From the NCBI RefSeq assembly GCF_012911925.1, contig NZ_JAAXKY010000009.1, forward strand, positions 1 to 64,000: a DNA stretch of 64,000 nucleotides, in the 5' to 3' direction. Shown in pieces: positions 42,905-49,906 of this stretch. The notes beneath the pieces are model-generated. The model searched no databases, was not told where the DNA came from, and worked only from the letters and a program-made list of their open reading frames with translations. The position numbers were made by a program, and so were the translations under genes. The DNA is from Pseudonocardia xinjiangensis. Its GTDB lineage: Bacteria; Actinomycetota; Actinomycetes; Mycobacteriales; Pseudonocardiaceae. The stretch's first letter is position 1. Every line of letters starts with the position of its first letter.

Positions 42905-44149
42905 TCAGGCAGGCTCGGCCGGTTCCCGGGCCCGGGTGAATCCGCGGGCGCCGGGTGCCGCGGCGGCGGCGGCCGGGGCGAGGAGGCAGACCAGCGTGCA
43001 CGCGAGCAGGACCGGTCCCGTGCCGAAGGTAGCCATCGCCGGGGCGATCAGGGCGAGCCCGAGCGGGGCGAGGCCGTAGGAGAACAGGAAGTCGATCGAG
43101 GAGACGCGGGCGAGCAGTCGTGGGTCGACCTCGCGCTGGGTCGCGGTGAACCACGGGACGTTGAACAGCTCGATGCCGATCCCCGTCACGACGTACGCGG
43201 CGACGACGAGGAGCGCCGGTACGGGCAGCAGCAGTGACAGCGGTGCGAGCGCGTAGAGGCCGAGACCGGCCAGCGCGACCCAGCCCGGCCACGGCGGCCG
43301 CCAGCGGGCGATGACCAGCGCGCCGAGCAGGGCACCAGCGGTGTAGCCCGTGGTGGCGGCGGCGAGCACGACCTCGGTGCCGTAGCGGTCGCGGGAGACG
43401 AGCGGCAGTGCGACGCCGGTTGCCGAGTAGCCGGTGGCGATCACTGCCGTCAACGCGCCGAGTCCGGCGAGGAACCACGGGTGGCGTCGCGCCTCCCGCA
43501 GCCCCTCACCGAACTCGCGGCCGAACGACGGCCGTTCGGGGCGGTTGGTGGCATCGGCTGCGCCTCGGGGTGGGACGAGGGCCGCGACGAGCCACAGGAC
43601 TCCGGTGCCGACGACCAGCGCCCGGACGTCGGCCACGAGCGCGAGCAGTGCCGCGGCGCTCGGCGCGACCAGGACGGTGACGCGGACGGCGATGGTGACC
43701 GCCGCGTTGGCCTGCTGCCGCCTTCCGGGGTCGACGACCTCGGCGACCAGCGCCTGGAACGCCGGTCGGCATGCGCCCTGCCCGGCCCCGACGACTGCTG
43801 CTGCGGCGGCGGTCAGCAGGACCGAGCCGTCAACGCCGAGTGCGACGACCGGGCTGGCCAGCGCGGCCGCTCCGGCCGACCAGCCGACGACCCGCCGGCG
43901 CGGGTAGCGGTCGGCGAGTACCCCGGCGACCGGGACCGCCGCGAGGAACCCGAGCGTGCGGGCGGCCAGTGCGAGACCGAGCTCGACGGCGGTGACGAGG
44001 CCGTCGAGCAGCGCGAGGCCGACCAGAAACGGCAACGCCCAGGTGGCCAGACCGGAGGCCGTGGTCCCGATCCACAGCCGCAGGAACGCCGGCTCGCGCA
44101 GGACCGAGCGAGCCGGTGCGGCCGTGGCCGGTGGCGGCGGCGGTGTCAC
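42905..44149 (-). CDS. MFS exporter in Zur-box locus (putative metallophore exporter)
   Basis: A 414-residue, roughly 12-segment major-facilitator protein. FLRLWIGTTASGLATWALPF opens it, and GVLADRYPRRRVVGWS is the MFS loop 2-3 motif. The family resembles EntS-like and macrolide-type drug exporters. The GTG at 44149 overlaps the stop of a 33-codon ORF as GTGA. It is divergent from the methyltransferase-to-ABC-transporter operon across a Fur/Zur-type box. In such loci an MFS protein usually exports the newly made chelator. Confidence 0.85.
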   Translation of the reverse strand: MTPPPPPATAAPARSVLREPAFLRLWIGTTASGLATWALPFLVGLALLDGLVTAVELGLALAARTLGFLAAVPVAGVLADRYPRRRVVGWSAGAAALASPVVALGVDGSVLLTAAAAAVVGAGQGACRPAFQALVAEVVDPGRRQQANAAVTIAVRVTVLVAPSAAALLALVADVRALVVGTGVLWLVAALVPPRGAADATNRPERPSFGREFGEGLREARRHPWFLAGLGALTAVIATGYSATGVALPLVSRDRYGTEVVLAAATTGYTAGALLGALVIARWRPPWPGWVALAGLGLYALAPLSLLLPVPALLVVAAYVVTGIGIELFNVPWFTATQREVDPRLLARVSSIDFLFSYGLAPLGLALIAPAMATFGTGPVLLACTLVCLLAPAAAAAAPGARGFTRAREPAEPA

Positions 44150-44247
44150 GCGCGACCGCTCTCGTCCAGGTGGGGGAGGTCCGCGGGCTGGAAGAGGTCG
44201 AGCAGCGCGCGCAGCTCGACACCCGTGAGCGGCGCAGTGCGGGGCAT
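44146..44247 (-). CDS. 33-residue small ORF translationally coupled to MFS exporter
   Basis: ATG at 44247 is preceded by GGAGAGGA at ideal spacing, while the MFS gene's own GTG has no comparable site. The product is MPRTAPLTGVELRALLDLFQ followed by PADLPHLDESGRA, an amphipathic helix with an acidic His-containing tail. Its TGA overlaps the exporter's GTG. It could be a coupling leader peptide or a small functional protein; I do not recognise the sequence. Confidence 0.6.
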   Translation of the reverse strand: MPRTAPLTGVELRALLDLFQPADLPHLDESGRA

Positions 44248-44356
44248 CCGAGTCCTCTCCGGGATGTCGGCCCAGGTTCCTGCAGCAGGCTTGCAAGAGA
44301 GAGAAGCATGCAGCATGAGCATCCGCGGCCTCCCCCTCCATGGTCAAGACTCCCTC

Positions 44357-44384
44357 TTGTTTTGGTAATGATAATCATTAACAT
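44357..44384 (+). promoter_or_regulatory. Promoter of metal locus, likely leaderless transcript
   Basis: TTGTTT (44357-44362) and TAACAT (44379-44384) are spaced 16 bp apart and point to a transcription start near the methyltransferase ATG at 44392. No ribosome-binding site is seen between. The Zur-type box fills the spacer and the -10. Confidence 0.5.
44363..44383. promoter_or_regulatory. Fur-family box, most likely Zur
   Basis: The core TAATGATAATCATTA (44366-44380) is a perfect 7-1-7 inverted repeat extended by TG and CA at its outer ends. It matches the AATGAT/ATCATT pattern of actinobacterial Zur boxes and the classical Fur 19-mer at 17 of 19 positions. Iron control in actinobacteria is mainly through DtxR/IdeR, so zinc control is the better guess. 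It is the only such site seen between the divergent transcription units. Confidence 0.75.
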
Positions 44385-44391
44385 AGCTCGC

Positions 44392-45165
44392 ATGATCCCG
44401 ACCCGCCCCGTGCTGCCGGGCGTCGCCGCCGACTGGGAGCTGCACGACCGGCTGCCCCAGACCCTGTCGCCCGACGTGATCCGTGCGATCAACCCGCCGA
44501 GCCGGGCCATCCACGAGCACCGCCGCTACTCGTGGAACGGGTGGGACTTCGAGCTCCCGCCCGGGGTGTTCCAGCCGGGTGCCACCAGCAGGCTGGTGCA
44601 CAGCCGGCTGCTCGACGGCACGCTTCCGGTGGCGGGCCTGCGCTACGCCGCGATGGGGTCCGGGCTCGGGGTCGAGGCCGTGGTGGCCGGCGTGCGCGGG
44701 GCGGCGGCCGTGTACGCCCTCGACGTGCACCCGGAGAGTGTGCGGACCACGGTGAGGCACTTCGAGCGGATCGTGGGTCCGGCCGGCCCGCCGTTGCACC
44801 CGGTGGTCGCCGACGTCTGGGAAGGCTTTCCCGACGGCGTCCAGGTCGACGTGGTCACGTTCAACCCGCCCGCGATCGAGCTGCCGCTGTCGGACGACCC
44901 GGACATCGCGCGGAACCTCTGCGTAGGCCGCGAGATCGCGGCGCGGTTCTTCGCTCAGCTCGTGGGACGCGACCTGCTGGCGTCCGGTGGGGTCGTGTAC
45001 CTGATCGTCTCCAACACCGCTCCGCTGCGCGAGATCGTGGCGATCGCGCTCGACGCCGGGTTCGGCGCCGAGGTCGTGCACGTGGAGGACTGGCCAGGCG
45101 ACGACGTCCAGACGTACCTGTTCGCGCTGCGTCGCGCAGGCACCTGCCCGGTGTCCGACCGCTGA
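44392..45165 (+). CDS. Class I SAM-dependent methyltransferase-like enzyme in Zur-box locus
   Basis: A 257-residue protein. The SAM-binding loop is AAMGSGLGVEAVVAGV with YALDVHPESV after strand two, and FNPPAIELP is the NPP motif found in N-methyltransferases of the HemK/RlmG type. The N-terminal 80 residues (WNGWDFELPPGVFQPGATSR) are reminiscent of post-SAM amino-group transferases. It might methylate or transfer an aminocarboxypropyl group to the PLP-enzyme product; the sequence cannot tell which. First gene of the operon, ATG nine bases after the Zur-type box. The next gene starts on its stop codon. Confidence 0.75.
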   Translation: MIPTRPVLPGVAADWELHDRLPQTLSPDVIRAINPPSRAIHEHRRYSWNGWDFELPPGVFQPGATSRLVHSRLLDGTLPVAGLRYAAMGSGLGVEAVVAGVRGAAAVYALDVHPESVRTTVRHFERIVGPAGPPLHPVVADVWEGFPDGVQVDVVTFNPPAIELPLSDDPDIARNLCVGREIAARFFAQLVGRDLLASGGVVYLIVSNTAPLREIVAIALDAGFGAEVVHVEDWPGDDVQTYLFALRRAGTCPVSDR

Positions 45166-46205
45166 TGCACCGGCACTACGCGGAAGCGATCGCGGATCCC
45201 GACCTCATCCAGATCGAACCGGGACTGGTGTGCCTGCGGTTCGAGATCATGAAGGTGCGCTCGGCCCTCGGCGCCGTGCGGCATCTGCTCGACGCCGGAC
45301 TGGTGCGCCGCGGCGACACGCTCGTCGACAGTTCCAGCGGGATCTACGCGCACGCCCTCGCCCTGGCCTGCCACCGGCACGGCATGCGGTGCCACATCGT
45401 CGGCTCCACCACGGTGGACCGGACGTTGCGCGTGCAGCTCGAGATCCTCGGCGCGACGCTGGAGCAGGTGCGTCCGTCGGCGGACCTCAAGCTCGACCAG
45501 AACCTGCGGGTGCAGCGGGTGGGGGAGCTGTTGCTGGCGCACCCCGACTACCACTGGATGCGGCAGTACCACGACGGCGTGCACTACGTCGGCTACCGGT
45601 CGGTGGCCGACACGGTCGGGCAGGAGCTGCCGTCAGGCCCGCTCACCGTCGTGGGCGGCGTCGGAACCGGGGCGTCGACCGGAGCGCTGGCCACCTACCT
45701 GCGTCAGGCGGGTCGTGACGTCGAGCTGGTAGGGATCCAGCCGTTCGGCAGCGTCACCTTCGGCGCGGAGCACACCTCGGACCCGGACATGATCATCGCC
45801 GGCATCGGGAGCTCGATCGAGTTCCGCAACGTCCGTCGTGACCTGTACGACCGCCTGCACTGGATGGCGTTCACCTACGCGCGGGCCGGCGCCGTGGCGC
45901 TGCTGCGCACGAGCGGTGTGTTCGCCGGTCTCTCGGCCGGCGCCGCCTACCTGGTCGCCCGCCACGAGCGCCACCGGGCTCCGGACCGGACGGTGGTGTT
46001 CCTGTCGCCCGACACCGGGCACCGCTACGTCGACGCGGCCTTCGAAGGCCACGAGCGCGTCCCCGCGGTGGACGGCCTGGCCCCCGAATCCGTCGAGAGC
46101 GTGCACGACCTGGTCCTGCCCTGGTCGACCACCGACGTAGTTCCGGGTTCCCGTGGTGCCGACGCCCGGGATGCGCGGTCTCAGCGCGCGGGCACCCGGT
46201 CATGA
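45165..46205 (+). CDS. PLP-dependent cysteine-synthase-like enzyme in Zur-box locus
   Basis: A 346-residue fold-type II PLP enzyme. FEIMKVRSALG supplies the Schiff-base Lys (about K30), SSSGIYAHALAL replaces the usual substrate loop after LVDSSSG, and GGVGTGASTGALATYL is the phosphate-binding glycine loop. Relatives such as SbnA replace the beta-substituent of O-phosphoserine or O-acetylserine with an amino group to build siderophore precursors, and Zur-controlled EDDS synthesis in Amycolatopsis is reported to use a cysteine-synthase-like enzyme. A similar beta-replacement here is plausible. The ATG shares one base with the preceding stop, and the next gene overlaps by four bases. Confidence 0.78.
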   Translation: MHRHYAEAIADPDLIQIEPGLVCLRFEIMKVRSALGAVRHLLDAGLVRRGDTLVDSSSGIYAHALALACHRHGMRCHIVGSTTVDRTLRVQLEILGATLEQVRPSADLKLDQNLRVQRVGELLLAHPDYHWMRQYHDGVHYVGYRSVADTVGQELPSGPLTVVGGVGTGASTGALATYLRQAGRDVELVGIQPFGSVTFGAEHTSDPDMIIAGIGSSIEFRNVRRDLYDRLHWMAFTYARAGAVALLRTSGVFAGLSAGAAYLVARHERHRAPDRTVVFLSPDTGHRYVDAAFEGHERVPAVDGLAPESVESVHDLVLPWSTTDVVPGSRGADARDARSQRAGTRS

Positions 46206-47011
46206 CGCCGGCGACGGTGGGCGTGCTCACGGCGGACGTCCTCGCCGGCCGGTACGGGCCCTCGCCGGCGGACCTGGTGGCGACCAGCGTGTTCTGGGTC
46301 CACCACGGCACGCGCCTCGCGGGCGGCACCACGACGTACCGCAACCAGTACCTGCTGGTCCGCGTCGGGGCGGTGTTCGGGGCCTGCGCCTTCGAGGCCG
46401 GGGAGGTCGATCCGGAGGTTTGCGCGGCCGCGTCGGGCAGTCCGCTGGACGTACTGCTGCGCGCCGGGCCGGGGGCGCTGCGGACCGCCGCCCTCGACGC
46501 CTACCTGGCTGCCCAAGCCCCGCACCGGGACTCGGTCGCGACGCCCGTCGTGCTCCCGGCCGGACCGCCCGAGGCCAGGGCCCAGGCCCGCGACACGGCC
46601 GTCGCCGGGCTGCTCGACGTGGCTCCTGGCGCGCGGGTGGCGCTGATCGGCGTGGTCAACCCGCTGGTCGCCGCCATCCGGGACCGCGGGGCCGAGCCCC
46701 TGCTCTGTGACCTGAACCTGCGGGTCACACAGTGGGGAGATCCGGTCACCGCCGTCATGGCCGACGTCCTCGAGACGGCGGACGCGGTGGTCGCCACCGG
46801 CATGACGCTTGGCAACGGCACGTTCGACCTGATCCTCGACCGTTGCCGGGAGCGGGCCGTCCCGCTGATCGTCTATGCGCAGACGGCCAGTGCGGTCGCC
46901 CGGGCTTTCGTCGGCGGTGGGGTCACCGCGCTGTCGGCCGAGCCCTTCCCGTTCTCGCAGTTCAGCGCCGACCCCACCGTCCTCTACCTCTACCGGGAAG
47001 GGCGCTCGTGA
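46202..47011 (+). CDS. DUF364-type Rossmann protein, putative heavy-metal chelation family
   Basis: A 269-residue protein. The C-terminal half (GARVALIGVVNPLVAAIRDR, ADAVVATGMTLGNGTFDLIL, VPLIVYAQTASAVARAF) follows the DUF364 Rossmann-like domain, annotated in Pfam as putative heavy-metal chelation. The N-terminal half corresponds to its usual enolase-N-like partner domain. No reaction is established for the family. Its fixed position between a PLP enzyme and a metal-type ABC importer suggests a role in making or handling the chelator-metal complex. ATGA overlap with the gene upstream, GTGA with the one downstream. Confidence 0.72.
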   Translation: MTPATVGVLTADVLAGRYGPSPADLVATSVFWVHHGTRLAGGTTTYRNQYLLVRVGAVFGACAFEAGEVDPEVCAAASGSPLDVLLRAGPGALRTAALDAYLAAQAPHRDSVATPVVLPAGPPEARAQARDTAVAGLLDVAPGARVALIGVVNPLVAAIRDRGAEPLLCDLNLRVTQWGDPVTAVMADVLETADAVVATGMTLGNGTFDLILDRCRERAVPLIVYAQTASAVARAFVGGGVTALSAEPFPFSQFSADPTVLYLYREGRS

Positions 47012-48105
47012 CGGCGCCGCACGGCATCGACGCAGCCGCCGCGGCGCCCGCACGGCCTGCGGCCGGCCCGACGTCGGTCGGGTTGGTGGTCGCCGCAACC
47101 GGGCTCTTCCTGGTGCTGCTGGCCTCGATCGTCGTGGCGATCGGGCTCGGTCCTGCGGTGATCAGCCCGGGGGAGACCGCGCGCTACCTCTGGGCGGCGC
47201 TGAGCGGCGGCCGGATCTCCGCGTCCGAGGTCCCCGCCTACCAGATCATCTGGCAGGTGCGGACACCCCGGGTGCTCCTGGCCGCCGCCGTGGGCGCAGG
47301 CCTCGGGGTGGTCGGGGTGGCCGTCCAGGCCATGGTGCGCAACGCGCTGGCCGACCCGTTCGTCCTGGGCGTGTCGTCCGGGGCGTCGGTGGGGGCGGTC
47401 ACCGTGATCGTCTTCGGGGTCCTGGCGGGCCTGGGCATCCACGCGGTGTCGATCGGAGCCTTCCTCGGCGCCGCACTGGCGTCGGTCCTGGTCTACGCGG
47501 CGTCGGTTACGCGGGCCGGGATCACGCCGTTGCGTCTGGTGCTGACCGGCATCGCGCTGTCCTTCGGGTTCCAGGCCGTGATGAGCGTGCTCATCTACCT
47601 CGCGCCGGACGGGGAGGCCACCAGCACCGTGCTGTTCTGGACGATGGGCAGCTTCGGCGCGGCCACGTGGCAGTCGCTGCCGGTGGTCGCCGCGGTCGTC
47701 GTGCTCGGCGCGGTGGTGCTGCGCCGGTACGGGCGCTCGCTGGACGCGATGGCTCTCGGCGACGAGACGGCGGTCAGCCTGGGAGTCGACACCACTGCGG
47801 TACGCACCGCCCTGTTCGTGCTGACCTCGCTGATGACCGGAGCGATGGTGGCCGTGAGCGGGGCGATCGGGTTCGTCGGGCTGGTCATGCCGCACCTGGT
47901 CCGCCTGGTGGTGGGGGCCGGCCACGCCAAGGTCCTGGTCGTCACCCCGCTGGTCGGAGCCGTCTTCATGGTGTGGGTCGACCTGCTCTCCCGCACCGTG
48001 GTCGCTCCACGTGAGCTGCCGCTCGGGGCGATCACCGCGCTCGTCGGGGTTCCGGTCTTCGTCGTCCTGATGCGTCGGCGCGGCTACCTGTTCGGCGGTC
48101 GCTGA
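47008..48105 (+). CDS. FecCD/BtuC-type ABC permease
   Basis: A 365-residue permease with about ten membrane segments. LPLGAITALVGVPVFVVLMR is the typical C-terminal end of FecCD permeases, RTPRVLLAAAVGAGLGVVGV the N-terminal signature, and GFVGLVMPHLVRL the coupling helix region. A single permease gene indicates a homodimer. It imports siderophores, cobalamin, heme or metal chelates. Part of the Zur-box operon. Confidence 0.9.
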   Translation: MTAPHGIDAAAAAPARPAAGPTSVGLVVAATGLFLVLLASIVVAIGLGPAVISPGETARYLWAALSGGRISASEVPAYQIIWQVRTPRVLLAAAVGAGLGVVGVAVQAMVRNALADPFVLGVSSGASVGAVTVIVFGVLAGLGIHAVSIGAFLGAALASVLVYAASVTRAGITPLRLVLTGIALSFGFQAVMSVLIYLAPDGEATSTVLFWTMGSFGAATWQSLPVVAAVVVLGAVVLRRYGRSLDAMALGDETAVSLGVDTTAVRTALFVLTSLMTGAMVAVSGAIGFVGLVMPHLVRLVVGAGHAKVLVVTPLVGAVFMVWVDLLSRTVVAPRELPLGAITALVGVPVFVVLMRRRGYLFGGR

Positions 48106-48914
48106 TGCGGCTTCAGCTGCGCGGGCTGACCGTCGAGGTCGCGGGCCGGGCCCTGGTCCGCGAACTCGACCTCGACGTCGGCAGCGGCGAGGTGGTCGGC
48201 CTGGTCGGCCCGAACGGGAGCGGCAAGTCCACGGCCTTGAGATGCGTCTACCGGGCGCTGCGCCCCACCCATGGCGCGGTGCTGCTGGACGGTGAGGACT
48301 CGGCGCGCCTGCGCCTGCGGGACAGCGCCCGCCGGGTGGCGGCGCTGACCCAGGAGAACGGCGCCGACCTCGACTTCACCGTCGCCGAGACCGTCGCACT
48401 CGGGCGCAGCCCTCACCAGCAGGGCAACCAGCCGCTCACCACCCGGGAACGTGAGCTGTGCGCGCGGGCGATGCACCAGCTCGACGTCGCACACCTGGCC
48501 CACCGCGGGGTGCTCTCCCTCTCCGGCGGGGAGCGCCAGCGCGTGCTCGCCGCCCGTGCGCTGGTGCAGGAACCGCGGGTGCTGGTCCTCGACGAGCCGA
48601 CCAACCACCTCGACGTGCGTCACCAGATCGAGCTGCTGTCGCTGTTGCGCGGATCCGGACTGACGGTGCTGGTCGTCCTGCACGACCTGAACCTCGCCGC
48701 CGCCACCTGCAACCGCCTCGCCGTCCTCCTGGAGGGCTCGCTCGTGGCCGTGGGAGACCCGTGGGAGGTGCTCACGGCCGAACTCGTCCAGCGCGTCTTC
48801 GGCGTCGCGGCGACCGTCGTCCCGCACCCGCTGACCGGTGATCCGCAACTCCTCTACTCGCTCTCCCCGGCGAGCCCCGTTCCGTCACCCGCCTCGGAAG
48901 GAAGCCTCCCGTGA
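48105..48914 (+). CDS. FecE/BtuD-type ABC transporter ATPase
   Basis: A 269-residue ATPase. Walker A is GPNGSGKST, the signature is LSGGERQRV, Walker B is VLVLDEPTNHLD, and the switch His lies in LVVLHDLNLAAA. Pairing with the FecCD permease completes a chelate importer. ATG overlaps the permease stop by one base, and the binding-protein GTG overlaps its stop. Confidence 0.92.
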   Translation: MRLQLRGLTVEVAGRALVRELDLDVGSGEVVGLVGPNGSGKSTALRCVYRALRPTHGAVLLDGEDSARLRLRDSARRVAALTQENGADLDFTVAETVALGRSPHQQGNQPLTTRERELCARAMHQLDVAHLAHRGVLSLSGGERQRVLAARALVQEPRVLVLDEPTNHLDVRHQIELLSLLRGSGLTVLVVLHDLNLAAATCNRLAVLLEGSLVAVGDPWEVLTAELVQRVFGVAATVVPHPLTGDPQLLYSLSPASPVPSPASEGSLP

Positions 48915-49906
48915 CCCCGTCCCGGACCGTCCGGCACACCGCGCCGGTCGTCGCACTCTCGCTCCTGCTCGTCGGCTGCGGGGCCGAGGTCGTCCCACGG
49001 ACCGACGCTCCGGCGCCCGTCACCGTTGCGCGCTGCGGCGAGGAGATCTCCTACCAGCGTCCGCAGCGGGCGGTCGCCTACGAGGCGGGGAGCGCGGACA
49101 AGCTGTTCAGCCTCGGCTTGACCGACGCCGTGCGCGGGTACGTGATGCCGCCCGCGAACCCGCCCGTGGAGGAGTCGCCGTGGGCGGCGGAGTACGCGCA
49201 GGTGGAGCTGCTCAGCCGCGACCTGCTCAACCGGGAGCTCGTGGTGGACGCCGGGGCCGACCTCGTCGTCGCCGGATGGCGTTCGGGCTTCAGCGACCAG
49301 CGCGGGATCACCCCTGAGATCCTCGACGGCCTCGGCATCCAGAGCTTCATGCACACCGAGACCTGCTACAACTATCCGAACTTCCCTGAACACCTGCCAC
49401 CGTTCGAGGCCCTCTACACCGACCTGGACCGTCTCGGCCGGATCTTCGGCGTGGAGGAACGCGCGAGCGCCTACATCGCCGAGCTGCAGGGCAGGGTCGC
49501 CGCCGTCCGGCAGCAGGCCCCCCGCCTGGACCCGCCGCCGTCGGTGTTCCTCTACGACTCCGGCACCGACCGCCCGTTCACCGCAGCGAGCCAGGTGCCG
49601 CCGAACCAGATCATCGAGTTCGCGGGGGCGCGGAACATCTTCGCTGACCTCTCGGCGCGCTGGACCGACGTCGGATGGGAGGCGGTGGTCCAGGCCCAAC
49701 CCGAGATCATCGTCATCCTCGACTACCAGGACCAGCCGGCCGAGGAGAAGATCGCCTTCCTCAAGGCGCACCCCGCCCTGCAGTCACTGCCGGCGATCCG
49801 GCACAACCGGTTCCACATCCTCGACTACAACGAGGCGATCAGCGGGCCGCGGATCGTCGACGGGGCGGAGCGGTTCGCCGAATACATGCACAGTTTCCGA
49901 CGCTGA
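48911..49906 (+). CDS. Periplasmic-binding (FecB/BtuF-type) lipoprotein
   Basis: A 331-residue lipoprotein with lipobox LLVGC. The class III binding fold is indicated by RAVAYEAGSADKLFSLGL, a central long-helix segment (LDRLGRIFGVEERASAYIAE) and IIVILDYQDQPAEEKIAFL. It would deliver a metal chelate to the FecCD/FecE importer. Its ligand pocket is not assignable. It is the last gene of the Zur-box operon. Confidence 0.9.
   Translation: MTPSRTVRHTAPVVALSLLLVGCGAEVVPRTDAPAPVTVARCGEEISYQRPQRAVAYEAGSADKLFSLGLTDAVRGYVMPPANPPVEESPWAAEYAQVELLSRDLLNRELVVDAGADLVVAGWRSGFSDQRGITPEILDGLGIQSFMHTETCYNYPNFPEHLPPFEALYTDLDRLGRIFGVEERASAYIAELQGRVAAVRQQAPRLDPPPSVFLYDSGTDRPFTAASQVPPNQIIEFAGARNIFADLSARWTDVGWEAVVQAQPEIIVILDYQDQPAEEKIAFLKAHPALQSLPAIRHNRFHILDYNEAISGPRIVDGAERFAEYMHSFRR

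Follow-up and report, generated by a model that had tools for sequence, protein, structure and literature searches.

A putative Zur-controlled zincophore locus built on an SbnA-like PLP enzyme and a DUF364 protein in Pseudonocardia xinjiangensis

We describe a compact locus of Pseudonocardia xinjiangensis (GCF_012911925.1; genome of 7.76 Mb) in which two divergent transcription units flank a Zur-type palindrome. The window, by which we mean the whole stretch of 64,000 nucleotides that was analysed, corresponds to positions 1-64,000 of contig NZ_JAAXKY010000009.1. On the plus strand, six genes form an operon. The first encodes a class I S-adenosylmethionine (SAM) methyltransferase (MT, 44392-45165), the second a fold-type II pyridoxal phosphate (PLP) enzyme of the SbnA/cysteine-synthase-like kind (45165-46205; PALP, 107 bits), and the third a DUF364 (PF04016) protein (46202-47011; 48 bits, cut-off 23). 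They are followed by the parts of a metal-chelate-type importer: a FecCD-type permease (46993-48105; 295 bits), a FecE-type ATP-binding cassette (ABC) ATPase (48105-48914; ABC_tran, 111 bits) and a Peripla_BP_2 (FecB/BtuF-type) substrate-binding protein (48911-49906; 76 bits), the N-terminus of which, judged by eye, resembles a lipoprotein signal. Adjacent genes overlap, and the ATG of the PLP gene has one base in common with the MT stop. The divergent unit, on the minus strand, carries a major facilitator superfamily (MFS) transporter (42905-44149; MFS_1, 121 bits) that is a candidate exporter; its GTG start is our choice within an open frame that extends to 44347. The proteins were typed with Pfam and NCBIfam (for FecE, the best 25 of 193 NCBIfam matches were examined). 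The gene calls and Pfam bear out the overlapping operon of the original prediction, with MT recognised by weak NCBIfam matches and a structure model. The same prediction placed the exporter behind a small open reading frame. That arrangement is present, as a 33-codon frame (44146-44247, minus strand) overlapping the MFS start, but of 80 related loci only the nearest has a recognisable counterpart of the frame (L003, E = 2.5e-5; the next is L012, E = 0.018).

Between the two units lies TGGTAATGATAATCATTAACA (44363-44383), a palindrome with 9 of 10 base pairs symmetric as counted by hand. The chromatin immunoprecipitation motif for Zur of Streptomyces coelicolor is given as tGaNNatSatNNtCa in the available text of PMC5472717. 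The palindrome contains two overlapping copies of this motif, at 44363-44377 and 44369-44383, with one mismatch per copy, in line with the Fur/Zur palindrome first noted there. In the whole genome, WATGAWWWTCATW with at most one mismatch occurs at 3 places, and the A/T-rich form TGAWWATSATWWTCA with at most two mismatches gives 4 matches at 3 places; the reversed control gives 0 for both. The three places of the A/T-rich form are the operon site itself, C308:79602-79616 and C257:16671-16685 (contig and position), and with a 13-base form there is also a weak site on C221. The site on C308 is directly upstream of a CobW-type gene (cobW, 187 bits), and that on C257 is just before znuA (146 bits), which is followed by genes for an ABC ATPase, an ABC-3 permease and a second permease fused in frame to a FUR domain. 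Since the A/T-rich site also precedes znuA, we favour Zur control rather than control by iron. The loose published form TGANNATSATNNTCA, with at most one mismatch, matches 102 places (control, 7), so it is the A/T-rich form that singles out the operon site. The operon and the MFS gene are apparently zinc-controlled through this Zur-type site. Three mismatch-free places of the loose form, C110:61885, C133:52746 and C295:7949, have G or C at the free positions. As a separate observation, the fused frame behind znuA (P0242, C257:19475-20653, within the stretch C257:11000-24000 of this genome, L095) follows znuA, the ATPase gene and the first permease gene, and joins a ZnuB-type permease to a FUR domain without interruption; the FUR match begins only at position 26. 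In one relative (G401), the ZnuB-type permease and FUR parts are separate stretches about 120 bp apart. A membrane-tethered Zur, a recent deletion or an assembly error are possible explanations of the fusion.

An alignment scan with MT of a one-genome-per-species collection finds 129 relatives, of which we used the best 80. One of these, L022, is the other contig end of L020 and was dropped, which leaves 79 loci; some share a genome, the counts ignore kinship, and the fetched stretches are up to about 20 kb, some of them ending at a contig edge. Within 6 kb of MT we find the PLP gene in 73 of the 79 loci, the DUF364 gene in 71, and both in 70. In all 70 loci the trio is on one strand. The co-occurrence of these genes in actinobacteria, proposed as a check of the original prediction, is thus found. 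The order is MT-DUF364-PLP in 44 of the trio loci (38 with a GHMP kinase gene) and MT-PLP-DUF364 in 26 (4 with GHMP kinase), which makes GHMP kinase a frequent fourth enzyme (42/70). Anywhere in the fetched stretch, the trio loci include a FecCD permease in 54 cases and an Opp-type importer gene in 8, with one or the other in 59; 60 have an MFS gene, which belongs to one or other of two types (43 have relatives of the window's own type), and importer and MFS gene occur together in 52. Tailoring genes are less frequent: TauD in 9 trio loci, PhyH in 7, and a RimK ligase in 3. The hosts include Streptomyces, Nocardiopsis, Amycolatopsis, Pseudonocardia and Kibdelosporangium. In Amycolatopsis palatopharyngis (L020/L022), a cluster-bearing stretch is found at both ends of one contig, in the manner of a terminal inverted repeat.

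The Zur-type site recurs in these loci. In the 79 loci (1.49 Mb), and counting matches anywhere within the fetched stretch, the A/T-rich form with at most two mismatches gives 106 matches in 64 loci, and with one mismatch 53 matches in 41 loci; the reversed control has 0 in both cases, and about one match would be expected in 1.49 Mb at the rate of the P. xinjiangensis genome. Whether Zur sites accompany the gene set in relatives was a second check proposed at the outset, and these counts point to Zur-type sites in most of them. The loose form with one mismatch gives 95 matches in 61 of the loci, many of them between MFS and MT or just upstream of the importer genes, and 20 scrambled palindromes give at most 9 matches in 8 of the same loci, 12 of the 20 giving none. 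These scrambled palindromes understate the background of the loose motif, for which the whole-genome count is the harder control, so our argument rests on the A/T-rich form.

Starting from DUF364 instead, we searched 394 genomes of the class (E ≤ 1e-10) and found relatives in 30, 21 of a close and 9 of a distant form; surroundings were fetched for 20 of the 30 positives (11 close, 9 distant). All 20 have a PLP gene at a distance of up to about 3 kb from DUF364 and on the same strand. In the close loci a GHMP kinase gene is often between DUF364 and PLP, and in the distant loci the PLP gene directly adjoins DUF364 (9/9). The MT type of the window is found in 7 of 11 close and 0 of 9 distant loci. 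Relative to the window, the distant form is about 40% identical in DUF364 and about 31% in the PLP enzyme. The distant loci (L128-L136) all have an ATP-grasp gene and an SBP_bac_5 importer protein (9/9 each), 8 of 9 have an MFS gene, and 4 of 9 a different methyltransferase; in L128, epimerase and methyltransferase genes were typed. The distant-form importer protein that was typed resembles NikA (154 bits against a cut-off of 600) and, less strongly, CntA (67.5 bits against 800). Of the 9 distant loci, 6 have the A/T-rich form and 4 the loose form with one mismatch; of the 11 close loci, 9 and 7 do, respectively. Plasmids carry such runs as well. The Rhodococcus plasmid pRZP2 (L164) has a distant-form run, annotated as an ATP-grasp protein, a hypothetical protein (our DUF364 match), a PLP-dependent cysteine synthase family protein, a dipeptide epimerase and an MFS transporter, together with a class I methyltransferase and an ABC importer. 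On plasmid 26 of Tsukamurella tyrosinosolvens (L163) we find a FecCD-type permease, an ATPase, a binding protein, DUF364, MFS, a hypothetical protein and the PLP enzyme, and no methyltransferase is annotated in this run. The gene is patchily distributed within the genus Pseudonocardia, where a DUF364 relative occurs in 16 of 62 genomes. Across all these clusters, the PLP enzyme and DUF364 are the most constant pair, and in several of them MT has a substitute or could not be found.

The alignment of the PLP enzyme with SbnA (PDB 5d84, 5d87) runs from the catalytic lysine onward. Its residues K31, R116 and Y136, numbered from the codon at 45162 by hand along the printed alignment, match SbnA Lys47, Arg132 and Tyr152, and they are invariant in 26 aligned relatives (of 73 detected). 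In SbnA, according to the available text of PMC12414870, Lys47 binds PLP, and Arg132, Tyr152 and Ser185 are responsible for the selective binding of O-phosphoserine. The enzyme scores 127.7 bits against the SbnA model TIGR03945, below the equivalog cut-off of 349.95, and two distant-form enzymes are likewise below it, with 238.9 and 250.7 bits. These residues point to a probable beta-replacement, in which an amine is coupled to an O-phospho-amino acid. A GHMP kinase in the cluster fits as a source of the O-phospho-amino acid. The kinase of the clusters is typed by GHMP_kinases_N (30 bits) and is labelled GHMP kinase on a Streptomyces plasmid; we take it to resemble the threonine kinase PduX.

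The DUF364 protein is above the gathering score of its family, and its structure model (predicted local distance difference test, pLDDT, 93.8) matches the known two-domain fold, which confirms the family. In its available part, a structure paper of 2010 proposes condensation or hydrolysis for DUF364, notes a position near metal transporters, and suggests a role possibly in siderophore-like compounds. The available text on the members Dhaf4260 (3L5O) and PH1506 (3NPG) assigns no reaction and makes no mention of a stable link to a PLP enzyme or to Zur such as we find here. We infer that DUF364 catalyses a second biosynthetic step. In four Nocardiopsis loci (L006, L007, L010, L011) there is no DUF364 gene within 6 kb of MT, and three of the four have a PLP gene at such a distance. 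We considered from these whether DUF364 is dispensable and rejected it, as all four genomes carry DUF364 elsewhere. L006, L007 and L011 combine MT with a FecB-type binding protein and a PLP gene (partial in L011), and L006 and L007 also have a RimK-like ATP-grasp gene.

MT has no Pfam match, and its NCBIfam matches, to a "putative methyltransferase" and to HemK2/MTQ2, are weak. The AlphaFold model (pLDDT 88.7) has the class I methyltransferase fold, GxGxG and NPP motifs are invariant across 21 aligned relatives, and the structural neighbours include enzymes directed at nitrogen: N6AMT1, PrmC and a carbamoyl N-methyltransferase. Loop, motif and fold are those of a class I SAM methyltransferase of the N6AMT1/PrmC type, and MT is probably an N-methyltransferase. 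We also considered an azetidine synthase (AzeJ/VioH), which is less likely: the MT family has GxGxG and NPP, whereas AzeJ carries a GxxxG loop (PMC11794875, available part), and AzeJ is not among the 50 structural neighbours listed for MT. Two genomes without a DUF364 match have stand-alone MT relatives (L013, L080) that probably have a different function. The genome of a third locus with MT only, L070, has two DUF364 matches.

Comparison with characterised metallophore systems gave no known pathway for the operon, as the original prediction had anticipated in calling its gene combination unrecognised, and a literature search that left subscription journals mostly outside returned no description of the cluster among the matches listed. 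Among the Pfam and NCBIfam matches listed for the eight cluster proteins, the only proteins scanned in this way, we find no nonribosomal peptide synthetase (NRPS), IucA/C or opine dehydrogenase, and nothing like nicotianamine synthase or SbnB. A search of the whole genome for IucA/C (PF04183) is also negative; the same search is positive in 2 of 14 control genomes. The locus therefore has neither the IucA/IucC of an NRPS-independent siderophore nor, within the eight cluster proteins, the CntL-like and CntM-like pair of an opine metallophore. The absences listed in the original prediction stand for the cluster proteins but, as regards the SbnB family, not for the genome as a whole. There is a close likeness to the SbnA step of staphyloferrin B in Staphylococcus aureus, which has the same amino-acid metallophore logic with export and import, and whose SbnA residues Lys47, Arg132 and Tyr152 are those kept here; it differs by Ser185 (glycine here), by SbnB and by IucA/C, and the present cluster has a zinc-type control site. 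The opine zincophores staphylopine and pseudopaline have a similar make-export-import layout without an NRPS, and the NikA-like importer protein of the distant form, with its weaker CntA match, is a further point in common, but the SAM enzyme here is a HemK/N6AMT1-type methyltransferase and not nicotianamine-synthase-like.

We consider it quite likely that the locus is a Zur-repressed zincophore system, of a non-NRPS family built on an SbnA-like PLP enzyme and DUF364. At low zinc, zinc-free Zur would leave 44363-44383, and both divergent units would be transcribed. The PLP enzyme would form an aminoacrylate from an O-phospho-amino acid, O-phosphoserine in this organism and perhaps O-phosphothreonine where a GHMP kinase is present. 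The amine of an amino acid would add to the aminoacrylate and give an aminopolycarboxylate of the N-(2-amino-2-carboxyethyl)-amino acid type, as the conserved SbnA residues suggest. DUF364 may perform the second step on this product, perhaps a condensation, and MT would N-methylate an amine. The MFS protein would export the chelator, and the FecB-CD-E importer would return its zinc complex. A make-export-import locus for a metal chelator behind a Zur-type site is what the original prediction proposed; the genome comparison strengthens it, and we infer the chelator itself. We also lean towards a wider reading, in which a large and so far undescribed class of metallophores in actinobacteria is built around DUF364 and the SbnA-like PLP enzyme. 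In this class DUF364 would form a bond on the PLP product, and the kinase, methyltransferase, hydroxylase, ATP-grasp and epimerase genes would diversify it.

Several observations weigh against this interpretation. The loose motif matches 102 genomic places (control, 7), and the operon site, with one mismatch, is just one of them. It is not included among the five places without mismatch, two of which are the CobW and znuA sites and three of which, on C110, C133 and C295, rank above it. About 20 of the 95 loose-form matches in the related loci would be background at the rate of this genome. The A/T-rich form with at most two mismatches is missing from 15 of the 79 loci; among the loci fetched from the DUF364 side, 3 of the 9 distant ones and 2 of the 11 close ones lack it. 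In the PLP enzyme, Gly168 is at the position of SbnA Ser185, so that three of four key residues are kept, and the SbnA substrate loop ESTSGNL is DSSSGIY. The window operon has no GHMP kinase gene, and a search of the genome for one, run with no positive control, gave no match. Four of the 11 close loci (L137, L140, L143, L145) gave no MT of the window type, which indicates that MT is not essential to the whole family. No importer is present in the fetched stretch of 11 of the 70 trio loci and no MFS gene in 10, some of these stretches being cut by contig ends. OCD-family genes, the family of SbnB, are present on other contigs of the genome, so an unlinked SbnB-like step is possible. Finally, the product could possibly be of the ethylenediamine-disuccinate (EDDS) type instead.

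This last point leads to an alternative in which the product is a zincophore already known, [S,S]-EDDS for example, or an evident derivative of such a compound, made by the operon through a rearrangement of the aes pathway of Amycolatopsis. A cysteine-synthase-like enzyme is reportedly used in EDDS synthesis in Amycolatopsis. To our knowledge, neither MT nor DUF364 is part of the EDDS pathway, and we found no source that links either of them to EDDS. The cluster is present in several Amycolatopsis, and EDDS synthesis in Amycolatopsis japonica is under Zur control according to the available part of PMC6103462, a likeness to the present locus in another actinobacterium. The extra enzymes (GHMP kinase, TauD, PhyH, RimK, ATP-grasp, epimerase) differ from cluster to cluster, as expected for a family of products. 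We regard the EDDS alternative as unlikely; the aes pathway is set apart here by description and not by sequence.

A second alternative, which we find improbable to a similar degree, is that the Zur-controlled product is an intracellular molecule, a zinc buffer or a metallochaperone ligand, and that the importer takes up chelates of other makers. Another A/T-rich Zur-type site of the genome serves a CobW-type gene, a family suggested to be metallochaperones (PMC6103462, available part), and there are the ten trio loci mentioned above that lack an MFS gene. An MFS gene is nevertheless present in 60 of the 70, in the run of 8 of 9 distant loci and on pRZP2, and in the window it is divergent across the same operator. 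We give very little chance to a natural product of some other role (a signal, an antibiotic, an enzyme inhibitor) merely timed by zinc, for although zinc affects antibiotic production in S. coelicolor (PMC5472717, available part) and the TauD, PhyH and RimK genes vary among the trio loci, a metal-chelate-type importer is in 59 of the 70 and the importers that accompany the gene set are of two unrelated types, FecBCDE and Opp/Nik.

If the zincophore interpretation is correct, a whole family of actinobacterial zinc scavengers would have been overlooked, because it does not use the signature enzymes NRPS, IucA/C and opine dehydrogenase, which normally give metallophore clusters away. More such clusters may be searched for by a simple rule: genes for a PLP enzyme and DUF364 that share a strand, with an A/T-rich Zur site nearby. 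The locus would point to new small aminopolycarboxylate zinc ligands, and it would give a testable role to DUF364, a family with a structure since 2010 but without a function. Should the wider reading also hold, it would provide a function for a domain family named only "putative heavy-metal chelation".

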